Of a stretch of 64,000 nt of DNA, positions 5,595-62,408 are shown piece after piece. The DNA comes from Faecalibacterium prausnitzii (lineage in GTDB: Bacteria > Bacillota > Clostridia > Oscillospirales > Ruminococcaceae). Numbering within the stretch: the stretch's first letter is position 1; each line of letters starts with the position of its first letter. The stretch covers positions 248,001 to 312,000 of the forward strand of contig NZ_PRLE01000001.1 of the NCBI RefSeq assembly GCF_003287495.1, given 5' to 3'. Position numbers and translations under genes: made by a program. Under the pieces are notes generated by a model. That model worked only from the letters and a program-made list of their open reading frames with translations, was not told the DNA's origin and did no database searches.

Positions 5595-6330
5595 GGGGTT
5601 CCTCCTCTTCTTCCGGGTCGGTCTGTGCCCCGGTCAGGGCCAGGAAGACTTCTTCCAGGCTTCTGCCGTCCGCGGTCAGCTCCTGCAGGGTGCCGGAGGC
5701 CGCCAGTTTGCCTTTGGAAAGGATAAGCACCTGCTGACAGACCGCCTGCACCTCGCTGAGGATATGGCTGGACAAAATGACGGTGTGGGCCTTGCCCAGC
5801 TCCCGGATGAGTTTGCGCATTTCGATCACCTGCGCCGGGTCCAGGCCCACGGTCGGCTCGTCCAGAATGATGATCTTTGGGCTGCCCAGCAGAGCCTGCG
5901 CAATGCCCACCCGCTGTTTATAGCCCTTGGACAGGCTGCGGATGAGCCGGGGCAGCACTTTTTCCAGCCCCGTCCGCCGGGCGGCACGGAGCACCTGCTC
6001 CTTGCGCTGGGCACGAGGGACTTTTTTGAGCTCTGCCACAAAGTTCAGGTACTCCCCCACCGTCATTTCCGGGTAGAGGGGCGGCTGCTCCGGCAGATAG
6101 CCCACGCAGGCCTTGGCCTCGTCGGCCTCCTCCGGCAGCGGGTGCCCCGCCACCGTTACCTGCCCGCTGGTAGCCGAGAGATACCCGGTGAGGATATTCA
6201 TAATGGTAGACTTGCCTGCGCCGTTGGGCCCGAGCAGACCGTAGATCTGGCCGTCCTCCACCGTGAACGAGACATCGTCCACCGCCAGATGACCGCCGTA
6301 TTTTTTGGTGAGATGGGATACTTCGATCAC
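5578..6330 (-). CDS. ABC transporter ATP-binding protein (GldA-like)
   Basis: 250 residues. Walker A GPNGAGKST (residues 33-41), Q-loop YLPEQPPLYP, signature LSKGYKQR (the LSKGxxQR form of ABC-2 exporters), Walker B IIILDEP and switch LSSHILSE. The last 15 residues are strongly acidic (DPEEEEEPHDSDF). The start codon is GTG with AAGGAGCG seven bases upstream. It is the first gene of the exporter operon, transcribed from a promoter at 6372-6400. The substrate cannot be told from sequence. Confidence 0.88.
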   Translation of the reverse strand: MIEVSHLTKKYGGHLAVDDVSFTVEDGQIYGLLGPNGAGKSTIMNILTGYLSATSGQVTVAGHPLPEEADEAKACVGYLPEQPPLYPEMTVGEYLNFVAELKKVPRAQRKEQVLRAARRTGLEKVLPRLIRSLSKGYKQRVGIAQALLGSPKIIILDEPTVGLDPAQVIEMRKLIRELGKAHTVILSSHILSEVQAVCQQVLILSKGKLAASGTLQELTADGRSLEEVFLALTGAQTDPEEEEEPHDSDF

Positions 6331-6371
6331 AGAATAACGCTCCTTATCTCAGCATCTTGTGCTTTATTGTT

Positions 6372-6400
6372 GGTATATTCTAGGATATAAATGTGTTCAA
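6372..6400 (-). promoter_or_regulatory. Promoter of the GldA/F/G-like operon
   Basis: Minus strand -35 TTGAAC (6400-6395), 17-base spacer, -10 TATACC (6377-6372). It lies 42 bases before the GTG start of the ATPase gene. Confidence 0.55.
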
Positions 6401-6463
6401 AATAAGGCAAAGAAGTGTAAACTCCGCAAGACGCCCCATTGCGGCAGAAAACGACACCTGCAC

Positions 6464-6500
6464 AAAACAAAAAGCGCCGCTCCCCGCAGGGAACGACGCT
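6464..6500 (-). terminator. Terminator of rpmE
   Basis: Minus-strand hairpin AGCGTCGTTCCC / GGGGAGCGGCGCT followed by a run of T. It starts 17 bases after the L31 stop codon. Confidence 0.85.
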
Positions 6501-6516
6501 GAGAAAAGACCAGTAA

Positions 6517-6717
6517 TTACTTACGGCCGAAGCGCTTGTTGAAGCGCTCAACACGTCCGCCAGTGTCAACCAGCTTCTGCTTACCAGTGTAGAAGGGATG
6601 GCACTTAGAGCAAACTTCGACGTGGATCTCGGGCTTGGTGGAACGAGTCTTGATGACATTGCCGCAAGCGCAGGTAATGGTGCAGTCAACGTAGTTCGGA
6701 TGGATACCCTGTTTCAT
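6517..6717 (-). CDS. rpmE: 50S ribosomal protein L31
   Basis: 66 residues beginning [20 protein letters not shown], the standard L31 start. Four cysteines in CACG and CSKC positions mark the zinc-binding (C+) form, which binds one Zn and is typical of zinc-replete cells. The ATG at 6717 has GAGGTG six bases upstream; a GTG nine bases earlier would break that spacing and add MKR-like residues not seen in the family. It is a single-gene unit with its own promoter and terminator. L31 sits at the 50S central protuberance and bridges to the 30S head. Confidence 0.97.
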
Positions 6718-48353: not shown

Positions 48354-49013
48354 ATGAAACAGAACAATCGTTTTTGCGTGCTGGCACTGACCGCTGTGCT
48401 GGCACTGACTCTAACCGCCTGCTCCGAGACGACTGACGGCTCCGCCGCATCGGGCAGCACCCAGACCACGCAGCCTGCCCAGAGCACCGCCCAGCAGGAC
48501 ACTTCCGCCGGGACTCCCTCTGCCAGCCAGCAGACCGAGGTGCTGGGCAGCCTGACCTCCTCCGAGCTGCAGGAACTCGTCTCCGGCAGCACCACACTGG
48601 AGCAGCTGACCCAGCAGCGCGCCGAGGCTGCTGACCCCGGCACGGGGAGCACCACTGCCCTGCCGGAGTATGAGCAGCAGCTGCAGGCTCTCATCAACCA
48701 GCTCTACGCCGTCAAGGCCCGGGCCGAGAGCGGCCTGAACAACACCATCCAGTCGGCCACGGCAGAGTACAAGGCTCTGCCTGCCGCCAAGCAGACCAAG
48801 AGCCGCAAAATCGCCATCGTGATGGGCAAGGCCAGTGAGCTGAAAGCCATGGAGGCTTCCTGTGACAAAGAGGTGGACGACATCGTAAACCAGATGCGCG
48901 CCCTGCTGACCCAGAACGGCCAGAGCACCGCCCTGGCCGACGAGGCATTGGCTGCCTACAAGGCCCAGAAGAGCGAAATGGTCTCTTCCCTCACCAGCAA
49001 ACTCTACGGCTGA
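48354..49013 (+). CDS. Surface lipoprotein, paralogue of the 52006-52818 product
   Basis: 219 residues. Lipoprotein signal with LTLTAC (cysteine 23), a Ser/Thr/Gln-rich linker, a short motif TSSELQELVSGSTTLEQLT at 68-86, and a helical domain at 104-219. That domain (YEQQLQALINQLYAVKARAE, then KSRKIAIVMGKASELKAMEA and NGQSTALADEALAAYKAQKS) matches the C-terminal domain of the protein encoded at 52006-52818 nearly throughout, and the short motif is shared too. A single Cys (residue 170) is kept in both. GAGGGGTTTT precedes the ATG. No family is recognised; it is anchored to the outer face of the membrane. Confidence 0.85.
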   Translation: MKQNNRFCVLALTAVLALTLTACSETTDGSAASGSTQTTQPAQSTAQQDTSAGTPSASQQTEVLGSLTSSELQELVSGSTTLEQLTQQRAEAADPGTGSTTALPEYEQQLQALINQLYAVKARAESGLNNTIQSATAEYKALPAAKQTKSRKIAIVMGKASELKAMEASCDKEVDDIVNQMRALLTQNGQSTALADEALAAYKAQKSEMVSSLTSKLYG

Positions 49014-49027
49014 GTGCCGAACGCGTT

Positions 49028-49082
49028 TCCCCTGCAATTTGTGCCGGAATATCCCCGGTACCCGTTGCAGGGGTTCTTTTTT
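49028..49082 (+). terminator. Terminator of the lipoprotein gene
   Basis: CCCCTGCAA / TTGCAGGGG outer stem with CCGG inside, followed by TTCTTTTTT. The 165 bases up to the next promoter (49083-49247) show nothing I can support. Confidence 0.85.
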
Positions 49083-49247
49083 GCCCGGAGAAATTCTGTT
49101 CCTGTCAGGCAGCCGCATTTTACAACTCCGGTCAGGCTTCTGTTCCACCCCTGCACGGTATCCGCTCCAAAATCATCGCCAGAGTTTTACTTCCGTTTGT
49201 AAATTTCGCCAATCTTTTGCATATTCCGGGTTTTTTTCCAATTTTGC

Positions 49248-49276
49248 TTGAATTGTGGGGACATACCGTTTAAAAT
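49248..49276 (+). promoter_or_regulatory. Promoter of the tyrosine-kinase operon
   Basis: -35 TTGAAT (49248-49253), 17-base spacer, -10 TAAAAT (49271-49276). Leader of about 90 nt. Confidence 0.6.
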
Positions 49277-49374
49277 TAGATGGGGTGTTAGAGCCTTTGT
49301 CTTTCTGCGTCAATTTTTAGAGAGGCGAAAGGCATGTTCCCACGTAATTTCAACTGAGAAAGGCGATGAGACAA

Positions 49375-50049
49375 ATGGAAATGGAAGAAGAAGTGATCGA
49401 CCTGAGCGAGCTGCTGCGGCTTTTGTGGAGCCATGTGCTGCAGATCGTGGCGGTGGGCCTTGTGGCGGCGGTGATCAGCTTTCTGGTATGCACGTTCGCG
49501 CTGACGCCCCGGTATCAGGCGTCCGTCAACATGATCGTCAATACCCGGCAGGATAACACGACGACCATGAGCACTGACAACATCACCTCGGCAAAAAACA
49601 TGATCGACACCTATGCAGTCATCATCAAGAGCAACCTCGTGCTCAACGATGTCATCCAGCGGATGGGCCTGGACATGACCTACAGCCAGCTGGCAGACAG
49701 CATCACGGTGGGCAGCGTCAACTCCACCCAGATCATGGCCATTACGGTGACCAATGAGAACCCGGGCCTGGCGGGCAAGATCGCGCAGACGATCGCGGAG
49801 GTCGCGCCGGACGTGATCGTGGAAAAGGTCGAGGCAGGCTCCTGCAAGGCAGTGAGCGACGTGGAGATCGGCACCACGCCTGTCTATCCCCAGACCAAGA
49901 AGACCATGCTGCTCTGCGCTCTGGCCGGTATGGTAGCGGCCTGCGCTCTGCTGGTGGTCAACCACCTGCTGCACAACTACATTGTAGACGACGAAGATGT
50001 TCAGAAGAAGCTGGATCTCCCTGTTTTGGGCTTTATCCCTGAGGTGTGA
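49375..50049 (+). CDS. Chain-length determinant / kinase modulator (Wzz, CpsC/YveK type)
   Basis: 224 residues. Short cytoplasmic start (MEMEEEVIDLSELLRLLW), span 1 (LQIVAVGLVAAVISFLVCTFA), a 130-residue outside domain and span 2 (TMLLCALAGMVAACALLVVN) followed by a cytoplasmic tail (DDEDVQKKLDLPVLGFIPEV). The PQTKKTMLLCA run before span 2 is typical of Wzz proteins. Family knowledge: its C-terminal tail activates the BY-kinase and it sets polysaccharide length. An ATG at 49366 is also possible; the AAAGG box fits 49375 better. The kinase gene starts six bases after the stop. Confidence 0.9.
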   Translation: MEMEEEVIDLSELLRLLWSHVLQIVAVGLVAAVISFLVCTFALTPRYQASVNMIVNTRQDNTTTMSTDNITSAKNMIDTYAVIIKSNLVLNDVIQRMGLDMTYSQLADSITVGSVNSTQIMAITVTNENPGLAGKIAQTIAEVAPDVIVEKVEAGSCKAVSDVEIGTTPVYPQTKKTMLLCALAGMVAACALLVVNHLLHNYIVDDEDVQKKLDLPVLGFIPEV

Positions 50050-50055
50050 TGTAAG

Positions 50056-50883
50056 ATGTGGAATCCGTTCAAACCGAAAATTGAAAACTCTGACCCCGGC
50101 CAGCGCTCCCTGCAGCTGATCTCCCAGAAAGGAATGCCCTTTGCGTATGTGGAAGCTTACAAATCCCTGCGCACCAACCTGAACTTTCTGACCAGCTCCA
50201 CCGGAGCCCGCGCCATTGTGGTCACCAGTACCATGCCGGAAGAGGCCAAGAGCAACGTCTCGGTCAACCTGGCCCTGACCCTGGCCGAAGACGGCAAAAA
50301 TGTAGCCCTGGTGGACTGCGACCTGCGCAAGCCCGTGCTGCACAAATACCTGAAAGCCGGTCACAATGTGAAAGGCGTTTCCAATATTGTCTCCAACCAG
50401 TGCAAGCTGGAAGAGGCTCTGCTGCGGCTGGAACAGCTCAAGATCACGTTCCTGCCCGCCGGCACGCCCCCTCCGAACCCCTCGGAGCTGCTGGGCTCGG
50501 CCCGGATGCAGCAGATGATCCAGCAGCTGCGCGCCACTTTTGATTATGTCATCTTTGACGCGCCTCCCATCTCCATGGTGACAGACGCGGCGGTCATCGG
50601 CAATCAGGTGGACGGTGCTCTGTTTGTTGTTCGTTCCAGCTACGCCCCGGCCGAGTCCGTGGAGGCCGCTGTCAAGAAGCTGAAAGACACCGGCGTAAAA
50701 GTGCTGGGTGCCGTGCTGACCCGCTATGACGCCAAGACGGCGCTCAAGGGCTCCAACTACGCTTACAACTATTATAGCTACGGCTACTCCTACGGTACCC
50801 CCCAGACGGATCCGGCGGCATCGCAAAGCCCGGAAAAGCGAAAGCACGCAAAGCCAGCCGAAAGGGTAACGAACCATGACTGA
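50056..50883 (+). CDS. BY-kinase (bacterial tyrosine kinase, CpsD/YwqD type)
   Basis: 275 residues. Walker A region IVVTSTMPEEAKSNVSVNLA (residues 54-73), where the usual GEGKS reads EEAKS; Walker A' ALVDCDLRKPVLHKYL (84-99); Walker B YVIFDAPPISMVTDA. The tail holds NYAYNYYSYGYSYG (234-247), the Tyr cluster that is autophosphorylated. Family knowledge: a cytoplasmic kinase paired with Wzz/CpsC that governs capsule or exopolysaccharide export. The phosphatase gene overlaps its end by eight bases. Confidence 0.92.
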   Translation: MWNPFKPKIENSDPGQRSLQLISQKGMPFAYVEAYKSLRTNLNFLTSSTGARAIVVTSTMPEEAKSNVSVNLALTLAEDGKNVALVDCDLRKPVLHKYLKAGHNVKGVSNIVSNQCKLEEALLRLEQLKITFLPAGTPPPNPSELLGSARMQQMIQQLRATFDYVIFDAPPISMVTDAAVIGNQVDGALFVVRSSYAPAESVEAAVKKLKDTGVKVLGAVLTRYDAKTALKGSNYAYNYYSYGYSYGTPQTDPAASQSPEKRKHAKPAERVTNHD

Positions 50884-51631
50884 TCTGCACTGCCATATCC
50901 TGCCCGGTATTGACGACGGTGCCAAAGATGTCTCGGTCTCGCTGGAGCTGCTCCACAAGGAGTATGAGGACGGCGTGCGCAACATCGCGTTCACCAGCCA
51001 TTTCAACAGCGAGCGCACCACGGTGGAAGCTTTTCTGGAAAAGCGTGCAGCCGCCTACGCGCGGCTGACCGAGGCACTGAAAGAAGAGCCGATGGACTTC
51101 CGGTTCAAGCTGGGCAGCGAAGTTTACTTTTCTCCCAAGCTCTGTGAGCTGGACGCCAAGGCCCTCTGCATGGGCGACACTGCCTACATGCTCATTGAGT
51201 TTCCCACCACCCATAAGCCTCATTTTATCAAGCAGACCCTGTACGCTTTGCAGGAACAGGGCATCCTGCCGCTGATCGCGCACATTGAGCGTTACCCCTA
51301 TGTGCTGGACGACCCCACCCTGCTGTATGAGTGGGTGGCCGCCGGTGCTTACGCGCAGATCAACGCCGGGGCCCTGCTGCAAGATGCAAAGCTCCGCAAG
51401 AAGCTCTGCAAATTCATCTCGTGGGGGCTCGTGCATGTGCTCTCCACGGACACCCACTCCCCGGACAAGCGCCCGCCCCGGATGGCGGAGGGCATCCAGA
51501 TGCTGCAGAAGACTCTGGGCACTGAGATCGCTGACCGGATCGTCCGCAACGGTGACGAGCTGTTTGACGACCAGGAGCTGGACATCATCTCCCCGCACCA
51601 GCCCAAAAAGATGCTGGGCATGTGGATTTGA
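50876..51631 (+). CDS. Tyrosine-protein phosphatase (PHP type, CpsB/YwqE)
   Basis: 251 residues. Metal site MTDLHCHILPGIDDGAKD at the N-terminus (His, His, Asp), FTSHFNSERTTVEAFLEKR, LIAHIERYPYVLDD and STDTHSPDKRPPRMAEG complete the PHP metal centre. ERVTNHD of the kinase overlaps its start, so both are read from one message. Family knowledge: removes phosphate from the Tyr tail of CpsD and so lets the polysaccharide system cycle. The end is followed by a new promoter 17 bases on. Confidence 0.93.
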   Translation: MTDLHCHILPGIDDGAKDVSVSLELLHKEYEDGVRNIAFTSHFNSERTTVEAFLEKRAAAYARLTEALKEEPMDFRFKLGSEVYFSPKLCELDAKALCMGDTAYMLIEFPTTHKPHFIKQTLYALQEQGILPLIAHIERYPYVLDDPTLLYEWVAAGAYAQINAGALLQDAKLRKKLCKFISWGLVHVLSTDTHSPDKRPPRMAEGIQMLQKTLGTEIADRIVRNGDELFDDQELDIISPHQPKKMLGMWI

Positions 51632-51648
51632 TCATCTTTTGTCTTTGA

Positions 51649-51677
51649 TTGAAAATCCGATATTTTTATTATAAACT
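51649..51677 (+). promoter_or_regulatory. Promoter of the 96-residue protein gene
   Basis: -35 TTGAAA (51649-51654), 17-base spacer, -10 TAAACT (51672-51677), inside a very AT-rich stretch. Confidence 0.5.
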
Positions 51678-51698
51678 TTGAAAAAGAGGAATTTTATT

Positions 51699-51989
51699 AT
51701 GAACTATCCTGTTGCTTATGCCGTAATCCCCGAAGAAGAAAAGACCTACATCGTCGGCAGCGGCGATGTCCAGTACGAGAAGCTGTTCAACTACTTCATC
51801 GGCGACTTCCTGCGTGACACCGTCAAGAGTGACGTCCGCAACGCCATCTGGAACAGCGCCAAGCAGAGTTCTTTCACTCCCATTGCCAACTGGTTCAAGA
51901 ACGTGGACGACATGGGTGTCATTGCACACCTGGGCTATTTCTACGGCTTCTGGCACATCTGGAGAGACGTTAAGGGCTACCTGGGCTAA
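51699..51989 (+). CDS. Conserved-looking 96-residue protein, no known family
   Basis: Soluble, Tyr/Phe/Trp-rich protein: MNYPVAYAVIPEEEKTYIVG, then GDVQYEKLFNYFIGDFLRDT and a C-terminal aromatic run HLGYFYGFWHIWRDVKGYLG. AGAGGAATTTTATT precedes the ATG. Codon use is strongly biased (C-ending), suggesting high expression. I recognise no family. It sits between the phosphatase and the second surface paralogue, in the same direction, with its own promoter. Confidence 0.75.
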   Translation: MNYPVAYAVIPEEEKTYIVGSGDVQYEKLFNYFIGDFLRDTVKSDVRNAIWNSAKQSSFTPIANWFKNVDDMGVIAHLGYFYGFWHIWRDVKGYLG

Positions 51990-52005
51990 TTAAAAAGTAA
52001 CGTAT

Positions 52006-52818
52006 ATGCAAAAGAAACAAATTTTTCAGCTCGTGCTTCTGGCTGTGGGCGCGGTCCTGGCTGCCGTGATCGGCTTCTGGCTCGTGCCGGTGAGCAATTA
52101 CATCAAGGCCCGCACGGCTCCGTTGGATGAGACCATCCTGGAAGCCGAAAGCAGCACGCGGGAGGTGGTCACCATCTCGGATACCGAACTTTCCCAGCTC
52201 ATCAGCGGTGAGCTGACCCTGGATGCACTGGCCGACCTGCCCGGCGTCATCACCATGGAGCCCGTCGGCACCACGGCAGATGCCGCCCAGAGCGGCGGCG
52301 CGGCCAATCGCTCCCCTGCGGACGAGACTTCCGCTTCTGCCATTGCAGAGAGCGAAGCTTCTTCGGACGCTGCTTCCCGTGAGGCACAGGCCGATGCAGA
52401 AACGCCCGCCCAGAGCAGTGCTGTCTCCGGCAGCACCGGCACTTCCGGCAATGCCAGCCTCTCGGAGGCCGCCTATGAGGGCGAAGTCAAGGCACTGGTC
52501 CAGCAGCTCTATGCCGTGAAAGGCCGGGCGGAAGGCGGCCTGAATGCCTGCATTGCTTCCGCCAAGGCAGAGTATAAATCTCTGCCGCCGGAGCAGCAGA
52601 CCCGCAGCCGCAAAATTGCCATCTGCATGTCCAAAGCCGGCCAGCTCTCGGCCCTGCAGGCCTCCTGCGACAGTGAGGTCAACCGCATTGTGAGCCAGAT
52701 GCGCTCGGTGCTCAAGGCCAACGGCCAGAGCACCGCCCTGGCAGACCAGGCCATGAGCAGTTACAAGAGCCAGAAGAGCGCCCGGCGGGCGGCTCTGATG
52801 AGCCAGCTTTACGGCTGA
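52006..52818 (+). CDS. Membrane-anchored surface protein, paralogue of the 48354-49013 product
   Basis: 270 residues. N-terminal anchor (FQLVLLAVGAVLAAVIGFWLVP, residues 7-28) without a lipobox. The motif ISDTELSQLISGELTLDALA (57-76) and a C-terminal domain (155-270, with YEGEVKALVQQLYAVKGRAE, TRSRKIAICMSKAGQLSALQ and NGQSTALADQAMSSYKSQKS) match the lipoprotein at 48354-49013. A low-complexity Ser/Ala/Glu linker joins them. The start has only AAAAAGTAACG, a poor ribosome binding site, 16 bases after the previous stop. The pseudokinase-MORN gene follows 33 bases later. Confidence 0.85.
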   Translation: MQKKQIFQLVLLAVGAVLAAVIGFWLVPVSNYIKARTAPLDETILEAESSTREVVTISDTELSQLISGELTLDALADLPGVITMEPVGTTADAAQSGGAANRSPADETSASAIAESEASSDAASREAQADAETPAQSSAVSGSTGTSGNASLSEAAYEGEVKALVQQLYAVKGRAEGGLNACIASAKAEYKSLPPEQQTRSRKIAICMSKAGQLSALQASCDSEVNRIVSQMRSVLKANGQSTALADQAMSSYKSQKSARRAALMSQLYG

Positions 52819-52851
52819 GCCGCTTTTTGATCACCCTTTGGAGGAACCAGC

Positions 52852-54441
52852 GTGGAACAACTCACATTTTCGCAGCACGCTGCGGCAAACGGCGGTTCCC
52901 TGCCCTGGCAGGACGCTGTGCGCCTGACGCTGCTGACCATCCAAACCATTTCGGCTCAGGCAGACCCGGAAACCACCTATCTGGATGTCTGCCCGGAGCA
53001 GATCGTACTGAGCAAAGACGCCCGGGAAGTGCTCTCCTGCGGTAAGCCCCACTCCCTGAAAGAGTGGGACGCCGCCGATGCCGCCAACCCGCAGCTGCTG
53101 CCCTGGGAGTTTTGGAACGCCTGGAGTGCCCGCACCCCGGCTGCTCAGGTCTACCCGGTCGCGGCCTGCCTGTTCGGCGCTCTGAGCGGCCACCTGCCCA
53201 TGGCGGCCAAAGCCCGGCTGAACGGTGCAGCGCTTCGCACCCTGCCCGACATCCCGGACGCGCTGAACAACGTGCTCCAGAAAGGCCTTGCTCTGAACGC
53301 AGCCGACCGCTGGCCGTCGCTGGAGGCATTCCGGGCGGCTCTGGTCGATGCCACCAAAATCGAGATCGCGGTGGATGACACTCCTGAAAAAACCGACGAC
53401 GCCCCCGCCCTGCAGGCAGGCCAGCTGGACCTGAGCAAGGTACGCACCGTCGATGCACCCAAGGGACCGCAGGCGGTCTACAAACCCACGGCCCAGAAAA
53501 GATCCGTCAAGCTTGGCCCCCTGCTCCCGGTGGCTGTCCTCTCGGTTGCGTTCCTGGGCGGCCTGCTGGCCTATCAGTTCACCCTGCGGGGTACCCCGAC
53601 GGCGGAAGAGCTCTTCCTGCCCACGGCAACGGCCAAGACTTCCAGCAGCTCCAAAGCCGCGGAATCGGAACGTGAAGCCGCTTCCAGTGCGGCAGAGAGC
53701 GAAGCAGCTTCTTCCAGTGAGGCTGCTGCCTCCTCCCCCGCCGCCAGCGAAGCTCCGGCCAGCGCTCCCTCCACCAAGCAGGAGGAGCCCGCCAGCAGCG
53801 CGGCTTCTTCCAAGGCGGCATCCAGTGCAGCCAGCAGTTCCAAGGCCGCCAGCGCTTCCAGCAAAAAAGAGGAGAAGCCCGCTTCTTCGGCCAGCAGTGC
53901 ATCCAGCACGGCTTCTTCGGAGGCTGCTGCCAGCTCTGCCGCCCCGGAAAACGTGACCCAGACGCTGACCCTTGCCGACGGCAGCAAGTTTGTGGGCAAG
54001 GTGGACGGCTCCAAGCAGACCGGCACCCTGACCAAACCCAACGGCGATGTCTATACCGGCACCTTTACGGACGGCAAACTGGAGGGCAAAGGTACTCTGA
54101 AAACCGCCAGCGGCAACAGCTATGACGGCAATTTTGCAGGCGGCCAGCCCAGCGGCTCCGGTACCATGAAGTATGCCAACGGCAGCACCTACACGGGCAG
54201 CTGGGCCGATGGCCAGCGCAGCGGCTCCGGCACGGTGAATTACGCCAACGGGGATCAGTTCTCCGGCAGCTTTGCCGCCGACCTGCGGGACGGCAGCGGC
54301 ACCTACACCTGGGCCAACGGCACCACCTACCGCGGCACCTGGAAAGCAGGCGAAGCGCGGAAAGGCGGCACCTACAGCTATACCGATGCAGGCGTGAAAG
54401 AGGGCCTTTCCGCAGGCGGCAACCTGACCATGCAGGATTGA
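52852..54441 (+). CDS. Degenerate Ser/Thr-kinase C-lobe fused to a membrane span and MORN repeats
   Basis: 529 residues. Residues 15-165 look like a kinase C-lobe alone: LPWQDAVRLTLLTIQTIS (helix E), TYLDVCPEQIVLSKD (in place of HRDxKPENIL, keeping the Asp at 45 but not the Lys or Asn), VYPVAACLFGALSGHLP (helix F) and ALNNVLQKGLALNAADRWPS (helix H/I with the Arg). No N-lobe, glycine loop or DFG is present. A span lies at 222-242, a Ser/Ala/Glu linker at 255-365, then about five MORN repeats (YTGTFTDGKLEGKGTL, YTGSWADGQRSGSGTVNYAN) on the outside. GTG start with GGAGGAACC. The kinase part is likely inactive. Confidence 0.82.
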   Translation: MEQLTFSQHAAANGGSLPWQDAVRLTLLTIQTISAQADPETTYLDVCPEQIVLSKDAREVLSCGKPHSLKEWDAADAANPQLLPWEFWNAWSARTPAAQVYPVAACLFGALSGHLPMAAKARLNGAALRTLPDIPDALNNVLQKGLALNAADRWPSLEAFRAALVDATKIEIAVDDTPEKTDDAPALQAGQLDLSKVRTVDAPKGPQAVYKPTAQKRSVKLGPLLPVAVLSVAFLGGLLAYQFTLRGTPTAEELFLPTATAKTSSSSKAAESEREAASSAAESEAASSSEAAASSPAASEAPASAPSTKQEEPASSAASSKAASSAASSSKAASASSKKEEKPASSASSASSTASSEAAASSAAPENVTQTLTLADGSKFVGKVDGSKQTGTLTKPNGDVYTGTFTDGKLEGKGTLKTASGNSYDGNFAGGQPSGSGTMKYANGSTYTGSWADGQRSGSGTVNYANGDQFSGSFAADLRDGSGTYTWANGTTYRGTWKAGEARKGGTYSYTDAGVKEGLSAGGNLTMQD

Positions 54442-54454
54442 GCGCCCTGCCCTC

Positions 54455-54570
54455 TTGACAAATCGCCTCGGCTGTGATATTCTAAAGCTCCTAAAATATC
54501 GTGTGGATTTTTACAGTATCAAGCTATTTTTCGCCACACAATGGTGCAAAAGCCATTGTGTGGCTTTTTT
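54455..54570 (+). promoter_or_regulatory. Promoter and attenuator-like leader of the MATE gene
   Basis: TTGACA (54455-54460), 17-base spacer, TATTCT (54478-54483). The leader then has GTGTGG (54501-54506) and a terminator hairpin CCACACAATGG / CCATTGTGTGG (54534-54544, 54553-54563) with six T. GTGTGG can pair with CCACAC and so block the terminator. If the promoter is real, this is a transcription attenuator; if not, the hairpin simply ends the upstream operon. Confidence 0.5.
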
Positions 54571-56039: not shown

Positions 56040-59000
56040 TTATTTGGTGTGCTGCTCGGTGCTCTGGTCATCCGATTCAATCGGCGTATCCAGTTCCTCC
56101 ACGGGGGCAGCGTTCTTTTTGGCCTTACGGGCCTTACGCTTGTGGATCAGCTTCCGTGCGAGGAATGCTGCCACCAGCAGCGCGGCTACCGTGCCGCCGC
56201 AGAGCTCCCAGAGCGGGATGCCCTTGGGCACAAAGGCCATGACGATCTCGGTCCCGGCAGCCGTAAAGGTGATGTAGCTGCCAAAGGTATCGGTAGGCAC
56301 TTTGATCCATTTGCCATCCTGCTGGACATAGACGCTGCCCTGCTTGCCCTGCGGCAGATAGCGGATGGTGTGGGTCTCCTGCCCGTCGTCCGAGAAGTCC
56401 AGCAGCCACTGCTCGGTGGCATTGGCCACGCCGGACGGCGTCTGGGAGGTAGCGCTCAGGGCATTGGAGCCGCCAAACAGGCCATCTACATAGAAGATCG
56501 GACGGCCGTTGATGCGGACATCAATGCTCTTCAGTGCCGGGGTGTAAGAGGTGTACAGCGCCGTGACCACGGTGTCCAGATGGAGGTCATCCAGCACCGG
56601 GGTGCTCCACTCGGCAAAGTAACCGTCTTTCTGGGGCAGCTCGGGGTAATCCGCCTCGGCAAACGATGCACCGTAAGCAAAGGTGCGCTGGTCCACGATG
56701 TGGCCGTCGGCCATAAAGGTCAGCGTCAGCTTCTGGAAGCCCTTGGGCGCGCCCTCCAGTGCCCGCATGGTATCGTAATCAATGGGCTCTGCCTGACCGG
56801 CACGGCTGATGCGGTCAACGCCGCGCAGGGTATCGGAGACAAACAGGTTCCCCGTGAACGTACCATCCTGGCCGCCGGAAATGGCGCCCCAATACTGACC
56901 GTCGGTGTTGCTGCTGCTCGTGGAGAGGGCCACTTCGGAGTCATCCCCGTCATCGTCCGGCTCATGGATATCCACCATGGCGCGGTTATCCTTGATGATG
57001 CAGCTGTTGCCGGTCAGGACACTGTCCGCGCCCTGGCCCACGATGCCGCCAATGTACTTGCTGCCGGTCAGCTCACACTTGGCCCAGTTGGAGATCAGCT
57101 TTGCGGAGGAACGGCCTGCAATGCCGCCCACCTTGTTGTTGCCATCCACTTTGCCGTAAGCTTCGCAGCCCGTGATGTAGCCCAGATCCATCTCGCCGCA
57201 GATGCCGCCTGCCGCCTCTTTCTTGGAGGTAACGGTGCCCTCGTTGACACAGTTCATGACCACCGCGCTGACGGTGTACTCGGTGCGCAGGAGCGAACGG
57301 TTCTCATCCTTATCGTCGTCTTCGGGGTCAAGGGTGTTTTCCACCGCCATGGTACCCGCGATGCCTCCCACATTCATGTCGGCTTCCACGGTACCGCGGT
57401 TGGTGCAGCCCTCGATCTTGCCCTCGTTCTGGGCCGTCAGGTTCTCGGACTCATCTTCAAAGATGTTCTTGCTGCCGGGGTCGCTGATCTCTTCCACAGC
57501 ATCCAGCAGCAGGTTGGAGACCACATTGATCTGGTCGTTGATGGAGCGGAGGTTGCTGGTGAGGGTGTTGCTGGCCGAGAGCATATCCCGGTTGAGGGTG
57601 CTCATCTGGTCGGTCATGTTCGTCACAGCGTCAAACAGTTCATCCTTGGTCGCGGTCATCTCGGAAGAGGGGCGCGGCACATGGATGGGATCCTGCTCCG
57701 CCAGCCAGTGGACGATATCCGCCGCCTGGCTGGTCATGCTGGTCAGGCCGCTCATACCCTCCGCCATGATGCCGAGGCTGGCGGACATGTGGCCCAGCGT
57801 TGCGCTGGTGAGGGCGGAATCCGTCTTGAGGATATCCAGAGACTTGTCAAAATCATCCGCAGCCTTGCCCAGATCCTGTGCGGCATCGCTCAGGGAATCC
57901 AGACCCGCCTGAATGGAGGCATTGCCGGAACTGATGTTGCCGGTGTTGAAGCCCAGCTTATCCAGAATATCTTCCAGATTGCCCAGCTGGTCGCTCACAT
58001 TGCCAAGCGCGCCGGACATGCTGGTAAGGGCAGAGGCCATCTGGGGATTGCCCTGCTCCGAAACGAGGTTGGCGGTGTTGCCCAGCAGCGCGCCGATCTG
58101 CGTGGCCAGGCCTGCCATATTGCCCACGGCGCGGGTGACCTGCTTGCCGGCGGAAGCCAGCTGGCCGTCATCAGCCAGCAGCGTGGCGCTCCGCAGCAGA
58201 CCCAGGCCGGTGGTCAGCAGCTTCATCTGGCCGCTCATGCCGGAACCCAACGAGAGGATGCTCATGGCGGAATTCGCTACCTGCAGCAGGGAGATGGCTG
58301 TTTTGATGTGATCGTCCACCGCGTCACCGGACACGCTGGAATAGCCGCCCAGAATGGTGCTGATGGCGCTGCTCAGGCCGCTGTCATCCTTGCCCGGCAG
58401 CGAGGCGATCAGGTCGTCCAGGCCCTTGCTGATCTGCTCCAGACCCTGTTTGCTGGAATCCAGCGCGTCGCTGGCCTTGTGCGCGCCGGAAGAAGCCTTG
58501 GCCAGTGCCGTGGAGGCGGTCAGCATCTCGGCTGCCATCTCCGCGGTGACCCACTTGAGCTGGCCCACGGCGGTGGTCATCTGATCCAGTGCGTCGACAC
58601 CCGTGTCCATCACGGGCTCCAGCCGGGTAAATGTATCGGAGATGAGGTCGCCCGTGCGGTCTACCTCGTCCGCCACTTCGTCAAAGTAATCGCCTCCCTG
58701 CTCCTGCAGACGGCGGGCTGCCTGCACGGCAGTGTCCATCTGAGAGTTCAGGGTGTTGAGGTCGGTATTGAGGAGGCTGGTGCTGCCGTCCATGTCATCG
58801 GCCGCGCCGTTAACCATGGTGTGCAGCGTGTCCAGCTCGGTGCGCAGACGGTTGATGGTGCTCTGGTCCAGGTCCAGCTCCACATAGGGCTCTGCCTGGC
58901 CGGCAATGCCGCCCACGTCCTTGCGGCCCTGTACCAGGCCCTGGTTGACACAGCCGGAGATCAGGCCATCGGTCCGGCCCACGATGCCGCCCACGTTATA

Positions 59001-59867
59001 GCCTACATGGGCATAGCCCACGTCGCCCGCGTTGGCACTGCTGAGAATCAGGCCGGAGGAGCGGCCTGCAATGCCGCCGGTATCCGAGGAGACATTGGAG
59101 ATGTTATTGCTCAGGTCATCGCCCATATCTTTCTTGACCAGCTCCAGCAGGGTGGCCGGGAGGCCCTCCATATCGAGGGCGGACTCCTGATACTCGGAGT
59201 TGACGGCACCCACATTGGTGCAGCCGGTGATGACACCGAGGTTGTAGCCCACGATGCCGCCGGTGGCATACGCACCGCTGACCATGGCACGGGAGGTGCT
59301 GTGGTCGATGGTTCCGCTCGTCTCATTGCGGCCCACCAGACCGCCCGCCTCCTCCTCGCCGTGGACAGCACCGGAGAACGTGCAGTTGATGATGGTGCCG
59401 TAGTTGGTGCCCACCAGACCGCCTGCGGTCTTCTGGGTACCAGCGGGATTGACCACACCCTTGATGGTAAGGTCCTGAATGGATCCGCCCTCTTCCAGGA
59501 TGCCGAAGAAGCCGGCTGGAGAATAAGCCCCCACGAGGCTGACATCCGAGATGGTGTGGCCGTTGCCCTTGAACGCGCCGCTGAACGACGCAACGGGGGC
59601 CCACTCCGTATCCTCCAGCGAGAGGTCTTCCTGCAGGATCACGGTCTTGCCTTTGGACCACTGATCAAAGCCGCATTTGTCGGCAAAGGCCAGCAGGTCC
59701 GAAACACTGTTGATGTAAATGGTATCCGTCGGCGCGGTGTCGGCCGCAAATACCGGCAGCGCCGCCGAAGCCGCCAGCACCAGTGCCAGCAGCGCAGCGG
59801 TCAGGCGGTGCAGCAGCCGGGTGCTGCCCGCCGCAGACTCATTCGTCCGCATGGGAGTCGTTTTCAT
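56040..59867 (-). CDS. Surface protein with GLUG-type repeats and heptad region
   Basis: 1275 residues. Signal peptide (RLTAALLALVLAASAALPVFA), a first block of GLUG-type repeats (GGLVGTNYGTIINC, GGLVGRNETSG, GGIVGYNLGVITGC, GGIVGRTDGLISGC, up to about 330), a long helical middle (about 340-850) rich in xxxLxxG heptads, a second GLUG block (GGICGEMDLGYITGC, GGIVGQGADSV), an InlB-like beta repeat (LTFMADGHIVDQRTFAYG), a membrane span (CGGTVAALLVAAFLARKL) and a basic tail. AGGAGGTGCAGG precedes the ATG at 59867, inside the end of the MMPL gene (29-base overlap). Such proteins accompany MMPL pumps. Confidence 0.85.
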   Translation of the reverse strand: MKTTPMRTNESAAGSTRLLHRLTAALLALVLAASAALPVFAADTAPTDTIYINSVSDLLAFADKCGFDQWSKGKTVILQEDLSLEDTEWAPVASFSGAFKGNGHTISDVSLVGAYSPAGFFGILEEGGSIQDLTIKGVVNPAGTQKTAGGLVGTNYGTIINCTFSGAVHGEEEAGGLVGRNETSGTIDHSTSRAMVSGAYATGGIVGYNLGVITGCTNVGAVNSEYQESALDMEGLPATLLELVKKDMGDDLSNNISNVSSDTGGIAGRSSGLILSSANAGDVGYAHVGYNVGGIVGRTDGLISGCVNQGLVQGRKDVGGIAGQAEPYVELDLDQSTINRLRTELDTLHTMVNGAADDMDGSTSLLNTDLNTLNSQMDTAVQAARRLQEQGGDYFDEVADEVDRTGDLISDTFTRLEPVMDTGVDALDQMTTAVGQLKWVTAEMAAEMLTASTALAKASSGAHKASDALDSSKQGLEQISKGLDDLIASLPGKDDSGLSSAISTILGGYSSVSGDAVDDHIKTAISLLQVANSAMSILSLGSGMSGQMKLLTTGLGLLRSATLLADDGQLASAGKQVTRAVGNMAGLATQIGALLGNTANLVSEQGNPQMASALTSMSGALGNVSDQLGNLEDILDKLGFNTGNISSGNASIQAGLDSLSDAAQDLGKAADDFDKSLDILKTDSALTSATLGHMSASLGIMAEGMSGLTSMTSQAADIVHWLAEQDPIHVPRPSSEMTATKDELFDAVTNMTDQMSTLNRDMLSASNTLTSNLRSINDQINVVSNLLLDAVEEISDPGSKNIFEDESENLTAQNEGKIEGCTNRGTVEADMNVGGIAGTMAVENTLDPEDDDKDENRSLLRTEYTVSAVVMNCVNEGTVTSKKEAAGGICGEMDLGYITGCEAYGKVDGNNKVGGIAGRSSAKLISNWAKCELTGSKYIGGIVGQGADSVLTGNSCIIKDNRAMVDIHEPDDDGDDSEVALSTSSSNTDGQYWGAISGGQDGTFTGNLFVSDTLRGVDRISRAGQAEPIDYDTMRALEGAPKGFQKLTLTFMADGHIVDQRTFAYGASFAEADYPELPQKDGYFAEWSTPVLDDLHLDTVVTALYTSYTPALKSIDVRINGRPIFYVDGLFGGSNALSATSQTPSGVANATEQWLLDFSDDGQETHTIRYLPQGKQGSVYVQQDGKWIKVPTDTFGSYITFTAAGTEIVMAFVPKGIPLWELCGGTVAALLVAAFLARKLIHKRKARKAKKNAAPVEELDTPIESDDQSTEQHTK

Positions 59868-62304
59868 CCTGCACCTCCTGTGAGATTTTACCAGAAAGAA
59901 CGGTAAGATGTACGTTTCCATCCACAATGGCGTTCATGGTACCGGCCACGGAGCCGTTCACCTCGCCCTGCACCATGCCATTGACACGCACCCGGCCGCT
60001 GGCCGTGTTGGTGTGCAGCACCACATGATGCATGGAGAACGAAGTTTTATCCACCAGCTTGCCGCCCACCAGCAGGATCTGCGGCAGGACGAACAGCACC
60101 AGGAAGATGGAGATGATGGTACCGCGGCCCAGGCACTGGCCGATGCCCACGATGCAGGCATCGGACGTCATCTGACCGATCAGGGTACCGGCCACCGTCA
60201 TGATGGTGCCGGAGGTGAGGATGGTGGGGAACGCAAAGTTCAGCGTCTCGATCATGGCCGTCTTATGGTCCATCTTATCCCGCAGCTCGTTGTAGCGGGT
60301 TGCAATGACGATGGCGTAATCGATGTTTGCACCCATCTGGATGGAGCTGACGATCAGGTAGCCCATGAAGTACAGCGGCGTGTGGATAAACGCAGGGACG
60401 GAGAAGTTGACCCAGATCGCGCCCTCGATGACGAGGATCAGCAGGATGGGCATTGCCACTGACTGGAACGTGAACAGCAGGACGATCAGGACGATCAGCA
60501 CGGAGACCACGCTGACCACGATGTTGTCGATGGCAAACGACTTCTGGAAGTCGTACTCGTTGGTGGCGTCGCCCGCCAGATAGATGTCGCCGTCCGGGTA
60601 ATACTTCCGGGCGATGGTGCGCATCTGGTCCGTGAACTCATACATTTCATCCCCGCTCTGGAGGCTGGGGTTCAGGTAGACCAGAATACGGTTGTAATCC
60701 GCGCCCTGCAGCTGGGCCTTTGCGCTCAGCATCTGGGTCTGGGCATCATGCAGGTCGTCGATCTGATCCTGGTCCAGGCTGACAATGCCGGAATCGACCT
60801 CGTCACAGACGTAGAGGAACATATCAATGAGCGGCACACTGTAGTTGGAGAAGTTGCCAATGACCTGGCCGTACTCATCATTTTCCAACGCGTAGCCTGT
60901 GTAGACCACTTGGGCCAGCTCGTAATCCAGGCCCGCCATCTCAGAGAACTGGCGGGAAGTGAGCCGGTCTTCCAGCATGTAGCCGTCCATGGCCTCGATG
61001 TTGGAAAGGCCGCGGGTGTGGTCCACCTCATCGTGGCTTTCCAGTTCTTTGATCATGGCTGCTTCCACCCGGTAATCGTCGTTCTTTGGTACGACGAGAG
61101 CCACCAGGTTGGACTTGGTAAAGTTTTCGTCGATCATGTTATCGGCGATCTGCGTCTCATTCAGCACTGGCGTCTTGATCGGGCCGTAGCCATAGGCGTA
61201 GGGGCACTGTGTCTGGAAATGGTAGGCAAACACCAGCACCACTGCAAAGACGATGGGAACGATCTTGCGGGTTTTGTAAGCATAGCGGCCCACGAACGAG
61301 ATCTTGGGCACAAAGTTGCGGTGCTTGGTCTTGCTCATGTAAGGGCCAAACAGCATCAGCAGGCCGGGCATGACCACGAAGACCGACAGCATGGAGAACA
61401 GGATGGCCTTGATCAGGCAGATGGCCATATCCGGGCCGATCTTGAACTGCATGAACAGCATGGCCACCAGACCGCCGATGGTGGTCAGGGAGCTGGAACT
61501 GATTTCCGGGATACTCTTGGCCAGCGACTCGATGACCGCCTCTTTCAAGGGCAGGGTCTCGTGTTCTTCTTTAAAATGGTTGCAGAAGATGATGGCGTAG
61601 TCCAGCGAAAGGGCCAGCTGCAGAATGTTCGTGACCGAGTTGGAAACGAACGAGATGGTGCCCAGCAGGAAGTTGGTGCCCATGTTGAGGATCATGCCCA
61701 CCACGAAAGTGAGCAGCAGCACGGGAACTTCCGCATAGGTCTGGGAGGTGAAGATCAGCACAACCACAATGATGATGGCAACATACACCATGATGACATT
61801 GACTTCACGCTCAATCGTCTCCTCCTGCGTATTGCCCAGCGAGGTGGAAACGTAGATATCGTAGTCTTTCAGGTACTCCTTGACGCTTTCCAGCGTTTCC
61901 AGGCACTGGTCGTCGTCCTCGGGGTAATCGAATGTGATGGAGTACAGCGCCGATACATTATTATAATGGGCGGTGGTATCATCGTACTCGATCATCTGGA
62001 TGCCCCTGAGGCCCGCCAGCTCGTCGTTCAGCTGGTCTGCCTCGTCCGGCGTGATGTTTGCCACCATGACATCGGCAGAACCGTAGGTGGTAAACTCTTT
62101 CTCCATAATGTCCAGGCCCATGCGGGTCTCGCTGGTCTTGGGCAGATAGGTGGTCAGGTCGCTTTCCACCTTGACCCAGCTGCGGGAGAAGATGGTGAAG
62201 ACGGCCCCCAGAATGACGATGAGGAACACAAGGTTGCGCCGCTCAACAATTTGCAGCGCGAGCTTGTGCATAAAATCGTTTTTGGGCTGTTCCTGCTCGG
62301 TCAT
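59839..62304 (-). CDS. MMPL/RND family transporter
   Basis: 821 residues with two MMPL units of about six spans each. The first loop (LTTYLPKTSETRMGLDIMEKEF) and the spans with YAIIFCNHFKEEHETLPLKE and the second-half equivalent YAIVIATRYNELRDKMDHKT are family signatures. GAGGAGGGAACACG precedes the ATG at 62304; the longer frame to 62325 is not used. Family knowledge: proton-driven exporters of lipids or surface molecules. It is the middle of a three-gene unit, with a small peptide upstream and the GLUG/heptad protein downstream. Confidence 0.9.
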   Translation of the reverse strand: MTEQEQPKNDFMHKLALQIVERRNLVFLIVILGAVFTIFSRSWVKVESDLTTYLPKTSETRMGLDIMEKEFTTYGSADVMVANITPDEADQLNDELAGLRGIQMIEYDDTTAHYNNVSALYSITFDYPEDDDQCLETLESVKEYLKDYDIYVSTSLGNTQEETIEREVNVIMVYVAIIIVVVLIFTSQTYAEVPVLLLTFVVGMILNMGTNFLLGTISFVSNSVTNILQLALSLDYAIIFCNHFKEEHETLPLKEAVIESLAKSIPEISSSSLTTIGGLVAMLFMQFKIGPDMAICLIKAILFSMLSVFVVMPGLLMLFGPYMSKTKHRNFVPKISFVGRYAYKTRKIVPIVFAVVLVFAYHFQTQCPYAYGYGPIKTPVLNETQIADNMIDENFTKSNLVALVVPKNDDYRVEAAMIKELESHDEVDHTRGLSNIEAMDGYMLEDRLTSRQFSEMAGLDYELAQVVYTGYALENDEYGQVIGNFSNYSVPLIDMFLYVCDEVDSGIVSLDQDQIDDLHDAQTQMLSAKAQLQGADYNRILVYLNPSLQSGDEMYEFTDQMRTIARKYYPDGDIYLAGDATNEYDFQKSFAIDNIVVSVVSVLIVLIVLLFTFQSVAMPILLILVIEGAIWVNFSVPAFIHTPLYFMGYLIVSSIQMGANIDYAIVIATRYNELRDKMDHKTAMIETLNFAFPTILTSGTIMTVAGTLIGQMTSDACIVGIGQCLGRGTIISIFLVLFVLPQILLVGGKLVDKTSFSMHHVVLHTNTASGRVRVNGMVQGEVNGSVAGTMNAIVDGNVHLTVLSGKISQEVQDENDSHADE

Positions 62305-62408
62305 CGTGTTCCCTCCTCTCGGCAAATTGGGGCCTGGGTGAGTATCCCCGGGCCGCGCGGTTCTTCGGCAGCTGATACGGCCTTTTGCAGCCGTGACAGT
62401 TTCTTCAT
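62301..62408 (-). CDS. 35-residue leader peptide or small protein before the MMPL gene
   Basis: MKKLSRLQKAVSAAEEPRGP is the start of a 35-residue frame with a strong ribosome binding site (AGGAGG five to six bases before the ATG). Its TGA shares bases with the ATG of the MMPL gene (ATGA). So it is coupled to the transporter. It is basic and hydrophilic with no span or known family. It may be a real small protein or a translation-coupling leader. Confidence 0.6.
   Translation of the reverse strand: MKKLSRLQKAVSAAEEPRGPGILTQAPICREEGTR

Follow-up and report, generated by a model that had tools for sequence, protein, structure and literature searches.

Genes and transcription units of the cluster

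The gene cluster described here lies in a 64-kb stretch of DNA (64,000 nucleotides of contig NZ_PRLE01000001.1, hereafter the window) from the 2.68-Mb genome of Faecalibacterium prausnitzii. The cluster consists of seven open reading frames at positions 48354-54441 of the window, all on the plus strand. They encode a putative lipoprotein (DOM1), a Wzz-type modulator, a bacterial tyrosine kinase (BY-kinase)-like ATPase, a PHP-type phosphatase, a protein of 96 residues (P96), a membrane-anchored paralogue of the lipoprotein (DOM2), and a protein with a kinase-like lobe and MORN repeats. An earlier sequence-only reading had described seven genes in one direction and proposed that they form a dedicated surface-assembly or signalling system built on tyrosine phosphorylation. 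All seven reading frames were confirmed with their positions and strand. The modulator, kinase, phosphatase, and DOM genes recur together in this order in other genomes.

DOM denotes the 116-residue domain common to genes 1 and 6. The DOM1 gene (48354..49013, plus strand) encodes a protein with a lipobox-like LTAC motif, read by eye, and a C-terminal three-helix DOM domain. The DOM2 gene (52006..52818, plus strand) encodes an N-terminal transmembrane anchor (residues 9-27), a low-complexity linker, and the three-helix DOM domain. Their paralogy, as first noticed by the sequence-only reading, is real, with 61% identity between the C-terminal domains over 114 residues. DOM is absent from Pfam and NCBIfam, where DOM2 has no match at E up to 1 and DOM1 has sub-threshold hits only. 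The AlphaFold model of DOM exhibits three long helices with a mean pLDDT of 91.8, and the PDB matches of this model are generic bundles.

Genes 2 to 4 form a triad on the plus strand whose earlier assignments are confirmed by family models. The Wzz/CpsC/TkmA-type modulator (49366..50049) matches PF02706 at 6e-15 and TIGR01006 at 144.5 bits, under the cut-off of 296, and its two transmembrane helices are predicted by hydropathy at residues 24-42 and 180-198. The BY-kinase-like ATPase (50056..50883), with a Tyr-rich tail and the P-loop EEAKSN, matches TIGR01007 at 179.1 bits, over the curated cut-off of 108.05. The CpsB/PtpZ-type phosphatase gene (50876..51631) is adjacent to the kinase gene, and its product matches PF19567 (CpsB_CapC) at 3.4e-54 and 184 bits against a cut-off of 27.

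The last gene (52852..54441, plus strand) encodes a degenerate kinase C-lobe, a transmembrane helix (residues 221-239), a Ser/Ala-rich linker, and MORN repeats. The repeats match PF02493 in four stretches (1e-20, 72.7 bits against a cut-off of 22.5). The kinase C-lobe matches NF047741 at 5e-7, although its 28.6 bits fall short of the cut-off of 460, and BLAST aligns it from the catalytic loop onward to the Pkinase-domain protein of another Faecalibacterium genome (G131, locus L088; 24% identity, E 1e-8). Both parts had been recognised by the earlier reading and both were upheld, with the lobe found to be degenerate. At the positions that we take to be the Asp/Asn catalytic loop and the DFG motif, the Asp of the loop is retained, but Gln takes the place of Asn and SCG that of DFG. 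Just 44 residues precede the alignment, and the N-lobe lysine, catalytic-loop Asn, and DFG of Hanks-type Ser/Thr kinases are not found in this protein. The kinase part has weak matches (E 3.6e-5 or worse) in three of the 30 other Faecalibacterium genomes and none in the rest, and no relative of comparable similarity to the MORN protein was found among these 30 genomes.

A Pkinase/PASTA protein is also encoded beside another BY-kinase module of the genus (G120, L080 5960-7540). Judged by eye, this protein seems to have degenerate catalytic-loop and DFG positions, parallel to those of the MORN protein. In a signalling relay, the MORN protein would act as a sensor of the outer surface and adjust the BY-kinase through its pseudokinase lobe; such a relay would fit this neighbour and the pseudokinase-transmembrane-repeats architecture. 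However, the lack of a close MORN-protein relative in the other genomes of the genus speaks against the relay, which we consider very unlikely. At L088 of G131, a double-glycine-leader protein is encoded at 6240-6563, close to a Pkinase/FHA gene.

An intrinsic terminator was identified 3' of DOM1 at 49029..49082 on the plus strand (hairpin 49029-49073, then a T run). The fold of 49020-49085 gave -30.8 kcal/mol, whereas shuffled sequences averaged -15.3 (z -6.0), and this terminator was unlisted by a simple terminator scanner. DOM1 is most likely its own transcription unit because this hairpin and a gap of 352 bp to the Wzz gene follow it. Two overlapping sigma-70-like promoter matches, by consensus only, lie between the phosphatase and P96 genes (51645..51677, plus strand), so two transcription units downstream of DOM1 are possible. 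A second intrinsic terminator ends the cluster 3' of the MORN gene (54533..54564, plus strand). The proposal of a single seven-gene system was therefore not borne out: DOM1 is most likely a separate unit, and the P96 and MORN genes lie outside the conserved core.

No glycosyltransferase or polymerase was found among the flanking window genes scanned with Pfam, and within that scope the contrast with capsule loci that had been drawn earlier holds. The adjacent glycosyltransferase, flippase, or polymerase by which a capsule or exopolysaccharide locus is recognised is thus lacking at the window locus. The triad is preceded, at a distance of about 11 kb, by a nucleotidyltransferase gene (PF00483).

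Gene neighbourhood of DOM in Faecalibacterium and other Clostridia

Among 31 Faecalibacterium genomes, a BY-kinase match at E up to 0.001 is present in 24 (some of them weak), Wzz in 21, and the DOM domain in nine. Close orthologues of the window kinase are present in five other genomes of the genus (66-69% identity). In four genomes (G146, G127, G132, and G135; L043-L046), the Wzz, BY-kinase, PHP, and DOM genes stand in order in a chromosomal context unlike that of the window, flanked by ABC-transport genes (two Pfam-tested at L043, the rest read by eye). In G131 the triad occupies the same chromosomal site as the window cluster (L047), between relatives of the window's oxidoreductase/metal-binding genes and MATE gene, and has no DOM gene with it. 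At the site of G133 that is syntenic to the window cluster (L071), a DOM1-like gene is the sole DOM gene. An LCP-family gene is present in other Wzz/BY-kinase/PHP modules of the genus (L080, L082, L083, and L090, each tested with Pfam), and a small secreted-looking protein stands in place of DOM at L080, L082, and L090.

DOM profile matches were identified in 31 of 394 genomes of the order, this genome included, which represent 21 of 167 genera. When named genomes were scanned with the order-level DOM alignment, 38 loci were obtained, including those of Butyricicoccus sp. Marseille-Q5471, Intestinimonas sp., Tyzzerella sp. An114, and Sedimentibacter sp. After eight duplicates and one weak hit had been dropped, 59 distinct DOM loci outside the genus were retained. 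The order Wzz-BY-kinase-PHP-DOM on one strand is exhibited by 21 of these loci, some with an extra gene before DOM, which is of SLH (S-layer homology) or sugar epimerase type at L172 and L176. The genes are thus not scattered in all other genomes, and the recurrence of this order, here and in the four Faecalibacterium genomes, supports the surface-assembly role that had been proposed.

A BY-kinase gene lies within 8 kb of DOM at 31 of the 59 loci. Both a BY-kinase and an SLH protein are present at 27 loci, and neither at three. BY-kinase matches over the cut-off occur in 23 of the 30 DOM genomes outside the genus. Chance proximity of DOM and a BY-kinase is expected to be rare (under 1% per locus by our rough estimate) because these 30 genomes hold just 32 such matches.

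SLH proteins are the commonest close neighbours of DOM outside the genus, within 8 kb at 52 of the 59 loci and within 2 kb at 50, and in this the DOM loci resemble the SLH surface-layer loci of Clostridia. The count within 8 kb is 45 of 52 once the seven loci from which the SLH seeds were taken are excluded. The density of SLH genes falls about sevenfold between the first 2 kb from DOM (0.25/kb) and the range of 4-8 kb (0.038/kb). In the genus itself, a DOM gene adjoins an SLH gene in G121 (L076), whereas the window locus differs in having no SLH protein. The Pfam families of 135 flanking proteins at 16 loci with the cassette include SLH (16), adh_short (9), PF02719 (8), and VanZ (8). No glycosyltransferase is among the 25 commonest Pfam families of these proteins, and few were detected near DOM loci in general with the insensitive glycosyltransferase profiles used. 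Glycosyltransferases are therefore not constant neighbours of these genes.

A trio recurs downstream of DOM at L188, L190, L193, L196, L203, and L204 and consists of a secreted protein without a Pfam family, an SLH protein, and a VanZ-like protein (each member was tested individually with Pfam at L188, and part of the trio at L193). The kinase of L172, on a contig titled Atopobiaceae bacterium UBA1367, is almost identical in the tree to that of Butyricicoccus sp. Marseille-Q5471 (L174/L142), which reflects either a mis-binned contig or a recent transfer.

These neighbourhoods bear on a rival explanation. The triad could be an ordinary free-standing regulator of the TkmA-PtkA-PtpZ kind, acting on polysaccharide or on many cytosolic targets, with the DOM, P96, and MORN genes as chance neighbours. 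The family models of the triad fit such a regulator, as do the triad of G131 without DOM neighbours and the LCP-carrying modules of the genus, which lie apart from glycosyltransferases as far as annotated. However, DOM stands beside the triad in the same order in many genera and, with different flanks, in four genomes of the genus; we regard the rival explanation as unlikely.

Kinase P-loop and P96 leader

The P-loop reads EE[AS]KSN in six of six kinase orthologues of the clade to which the window kinase belongs, so that the Walker A GK[ST] is missing, whereas [ED]GK[ST] is present in 43 of 43 other BY-kinase rows (39 once four duplicate loci are removed). A relative in G081 (L051 8767-9456, 47% identity) has the P-loop EDASST, with the lysine lost besides the glycine, and one stop in frame. 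In the BY-kinase tree, rooted at the midpoint, the window clade is on a long branch (1.47) with a split support of 91/67. The clade retains the Walker A' and Walker B motifs and the Tyr-rich tail; in the window kinase the motifs read LVDCDLR and VIFDAPP, and seven Tyr lie in the last 45 residues. The phosphatase is well conserved among the genus orthologues (76-80% identity).

Tyrosine phosphorylation by the window kinase is doubtful because its clade is without the P-loop glycine. With that glycine lost and the lobe of the MORN protein degenerate, the earlier proposal of a system built on tyrosine phosphorylation was not supported. The protein may instead be a pseudo-BY-kinase that has lost normal ATP binding or hydrolysis and acts as a structural partner to Wzz, in a module that works without tyrosine phosphorylation. 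The consistent loss of the glycine within the clade, the further loss of the lysine in the G081 relative, and the long branch are in line with this explanation, which is compatible with a role in envelope assembly. The retained Walker A' and Walker B motifs and Tyr-rich tail point the other way, and a well-conserved phosphatase would be odd if nothing were phosphorylated. We hold the pseudo-BY-kinase to be a plausible, still tentative, explanation.

The P96 gene (51699..51989, plus strand) encodes a protein with a MAM-type double-glycine-like leader (G20-S21) and a predicted helical cargo. The sequence-only reading had listed P96 as unknown; this stands in so far as P96 matches no Pfam or NCBIfam family at E up to 1, and it no longer stands for residues 1-26, which align with the MAM leader in an hhalign profile comparison (probability 92.2, E 5.8e-7). 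In F. duncaniae, MAM is reported to exceed all other envelope proteins in abundance and to form a hexameric lattice (PMC12184118). P96 resembles MAM in the length and pattern of the leader, in Gly at position 20, in the predicted helical cargo, and in the presence of a peptidase-containing ATP-binding cassette transporter (PCAT) in the same genome. P96 differs from MAM in Ser at position 21, in a cargo for which hhalign gave no alignment to MAM beyond the leader, and in its start, MNYPVAY, which falls outside the leader pattern MMMPANx(8,11)VxGG given for the search of MAM homologues (PMC12184118). The model of P96 is weak (pLDDT 66), with a low-confidence leader and helices at 25-56, 60-70, and 74-95 (32, 11, and 22 residues); the core helices of MAM are reported at 37-70, 74-86, and 100-119 (PMC12184118).

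P96 relatives are present in four of the 31 genomes of the genus, this genome included. In the three genomes that have both a close P96 relative and DOM (G000, which is this genome, G131, and G127), P96 adjoins a DOM gene in all three, with a 16-bp gap, a 1-bp overlap, and a 132-bp gap. DOM stands after P96 in the window and G131 and before it in G127, where polysaccharide genes (L050; Bac_transf, EpsG, and DUF4422 by Pfam) surround one DOM gene and two P96-type genes. The fourth genome, G147, has a more distant relative (29% identity) and no DOM match. Judged from these gene orders, the window cluster is a mosaic of the conserved quartet and a P96-DOM pair. In G131 a 495-residue Wzz-like protein follows the P96-DOM pair (L049 10442-11929), and its C-terminus resembles a BY-kinase weakly (5.7 bits), as an apparent remnant. 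Two further double-glycine-leader proteins are encoded in G147 (L052 8455-9322).

PCAT peptidases may tolerate GS at the leader cleavage position. C39-peptidase matches are present in 27 of the 31 genomes of the genus, this one included (as short frames in G081 and G145), and the one C39-match gene of this genome encodes a full PCAT with C39, ABC membrane, and ABC ATPase domains. Two MAM-type genes flank it on either side, with a three-gene cluster beside (L101 6702-10714, G000:C12), which links the PCAT of the genus to the envelope protein MAM. A MAM-PCAT arrangement with a three-gene cluster of HlyD type is described for Faecalibacterium in PMC8836110; the layout in this genome matches it, in agreement with the genus. 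P96 could also be a secreted signal or a bacteriocin-like peptide that leaves through the PCAT and is incidental in the cluster, in keeping with its double-glycine-like leader and with the common export of bacteriocins and some pheromones by PCATs (PMC8836110). This is quite unlikely, given its adjacency to DOM in three genomes with three different contexts and the link of the PCAT to MAM.

Candidate role in envelope assembly

The sole Wzz (PF02706) match and the sole BY-kinase match of this genome are both in the window. A Wzx/Wzy locus lies about 185 kb from the window on the same contig and has a flippase (PF01943), an EpsG polymerase (PF14897), three glycosyltransferases, a polysaccharide pyruvyltransferase (PF04230), and, near its end, a third DOM gene. 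Two initiating sugar transferases are also encoded outside the window. The simplest reading of this layout is that the window module would act in trans on the distant polysaccharide.

The triad shares its three protein families with the streptococcal capsule regulators CpsB, CpsC, and CpsD. Those regulators sit inside the capsule locus, whereas the window triad is outside such a locus and no LCP-family gene is among the window neighbours scanned. The arrangement is also like the tkmA-ptkA-ptpZ-ugd operon of Bacillus subtilis, in which a modulator, a BY-kinase, and a polyhistidinol-phosphatase-like phosphatase are encoded together, separate from the eps operon (PMC3973450, PMC4304235). Unlike that operon, the window has a kinase with a degenerate P-loop, and P96, DOM, and MORN genes follow the triad instead of ugd. 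Unlike B. subtilis, this genome has no second BY-kinase match.

We propose that the cluster is a free-standing envelope-assembly module in which the triad would act in trans on polysaccharide, DOM2 would couple the triad to a surface-layer protein, and P96 would be such a protein or an assembly partner. The modulator/co-polymerase Wzz, the kinase-like ATPase, and the phosphatase would form a complex of the TkmA-PtkA-PtpZ/CpsCDB type that regulates export of the cell-surface polysaccharide made at the Wzx/Wzy locus. DOM2 would contact this complex as a fourth partner, held by its membrane anchor and with the three-helix domain predicted to lie outside. The surface-layer protein would be an SLH-domain protein in other Clostridia and a MAM-leader protein such as P96 in Faecalibacterium, where P96 would be exported and cleaved by the PCAT that nearly every genome of the genus carries. 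For the pseudokinase-MORN protein, an accessory role specific to the lineage is conceivable, perhaps that of a sensor or scaffold. We consider this proposal credible, although it is put forward with some reserve. It can be widened: DOM may be a new fourth component of clostridial Wzz/BY-kinase/PHP modules that links surface-layer placement to the synthesis or export of a wall polysaccharide, and Faecalibacterium may have retained the module, swapped the SLH protein for PCAT-exported lattice proteins of MAM type, and lost kinase catalysis. This wider proposal is speculative and rather unlikely as it stands.

Several findings weigh against the proposed module. In the BY-kinase tree, the window clade is not nested within the DOM-linked kinases. 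A BY-kinase within 8 kb is lacking at 28 of the 59 DOM loci (some contigs are short), seven of the 30 DOM genomes have no BY-kinase over the cut-off, and the 59 loci are counted without correction for relatedness (L193, L196, L199, and L203, for instance, are near copies). The window has no SLH hit, and the four SLH matches of the genome lie elsewhere. The Ser in place of the second Gly of P96, its cargo without detectable similarity to MAM, and its weak model count here as well. So does its narrow distribution, since no relative was found in the other 118 of the 119 family genomes searched and its four genomes are the only ones of the 31 in the genus. Outside the genus, DOM genes had no recognisable GG-leader gene next to them, and the triad (L047) and the P96-DOM pair (L049) of G131 are at different sites.

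SLH domains are reported to bind a pyruvylated wall polymer (PMC6081394, PMC6030368), so an SLH gene beside a polysaccharide regulator is sensible. A limited literature search (titles and abstract starts) gave no publication that ties BY-kinase modules to SLH proteins, describes DOM, or has the coordination of wall polysaccharide with the surface layer in Clostridia as its topic. DOM is a concrete and widespread candidate for this coordination. MAM is reported to dominate the envelope proteins of a human gut commensal with anti-inflammatory activity; a further MAM-leader protein in a polysaccharide-control cluster may offer a genetic handle on lattice building. With its conserved P-loop loss, a BY-kinase module that is otherwise intact allows the idea of kinase modules without normal ATP use to be tested.

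Beside the cluster, on the minus strand at 56040-62325 of the window, a 1295-residue GLUG-motif protein and an MMPL-family transporter are encoded in tandem.

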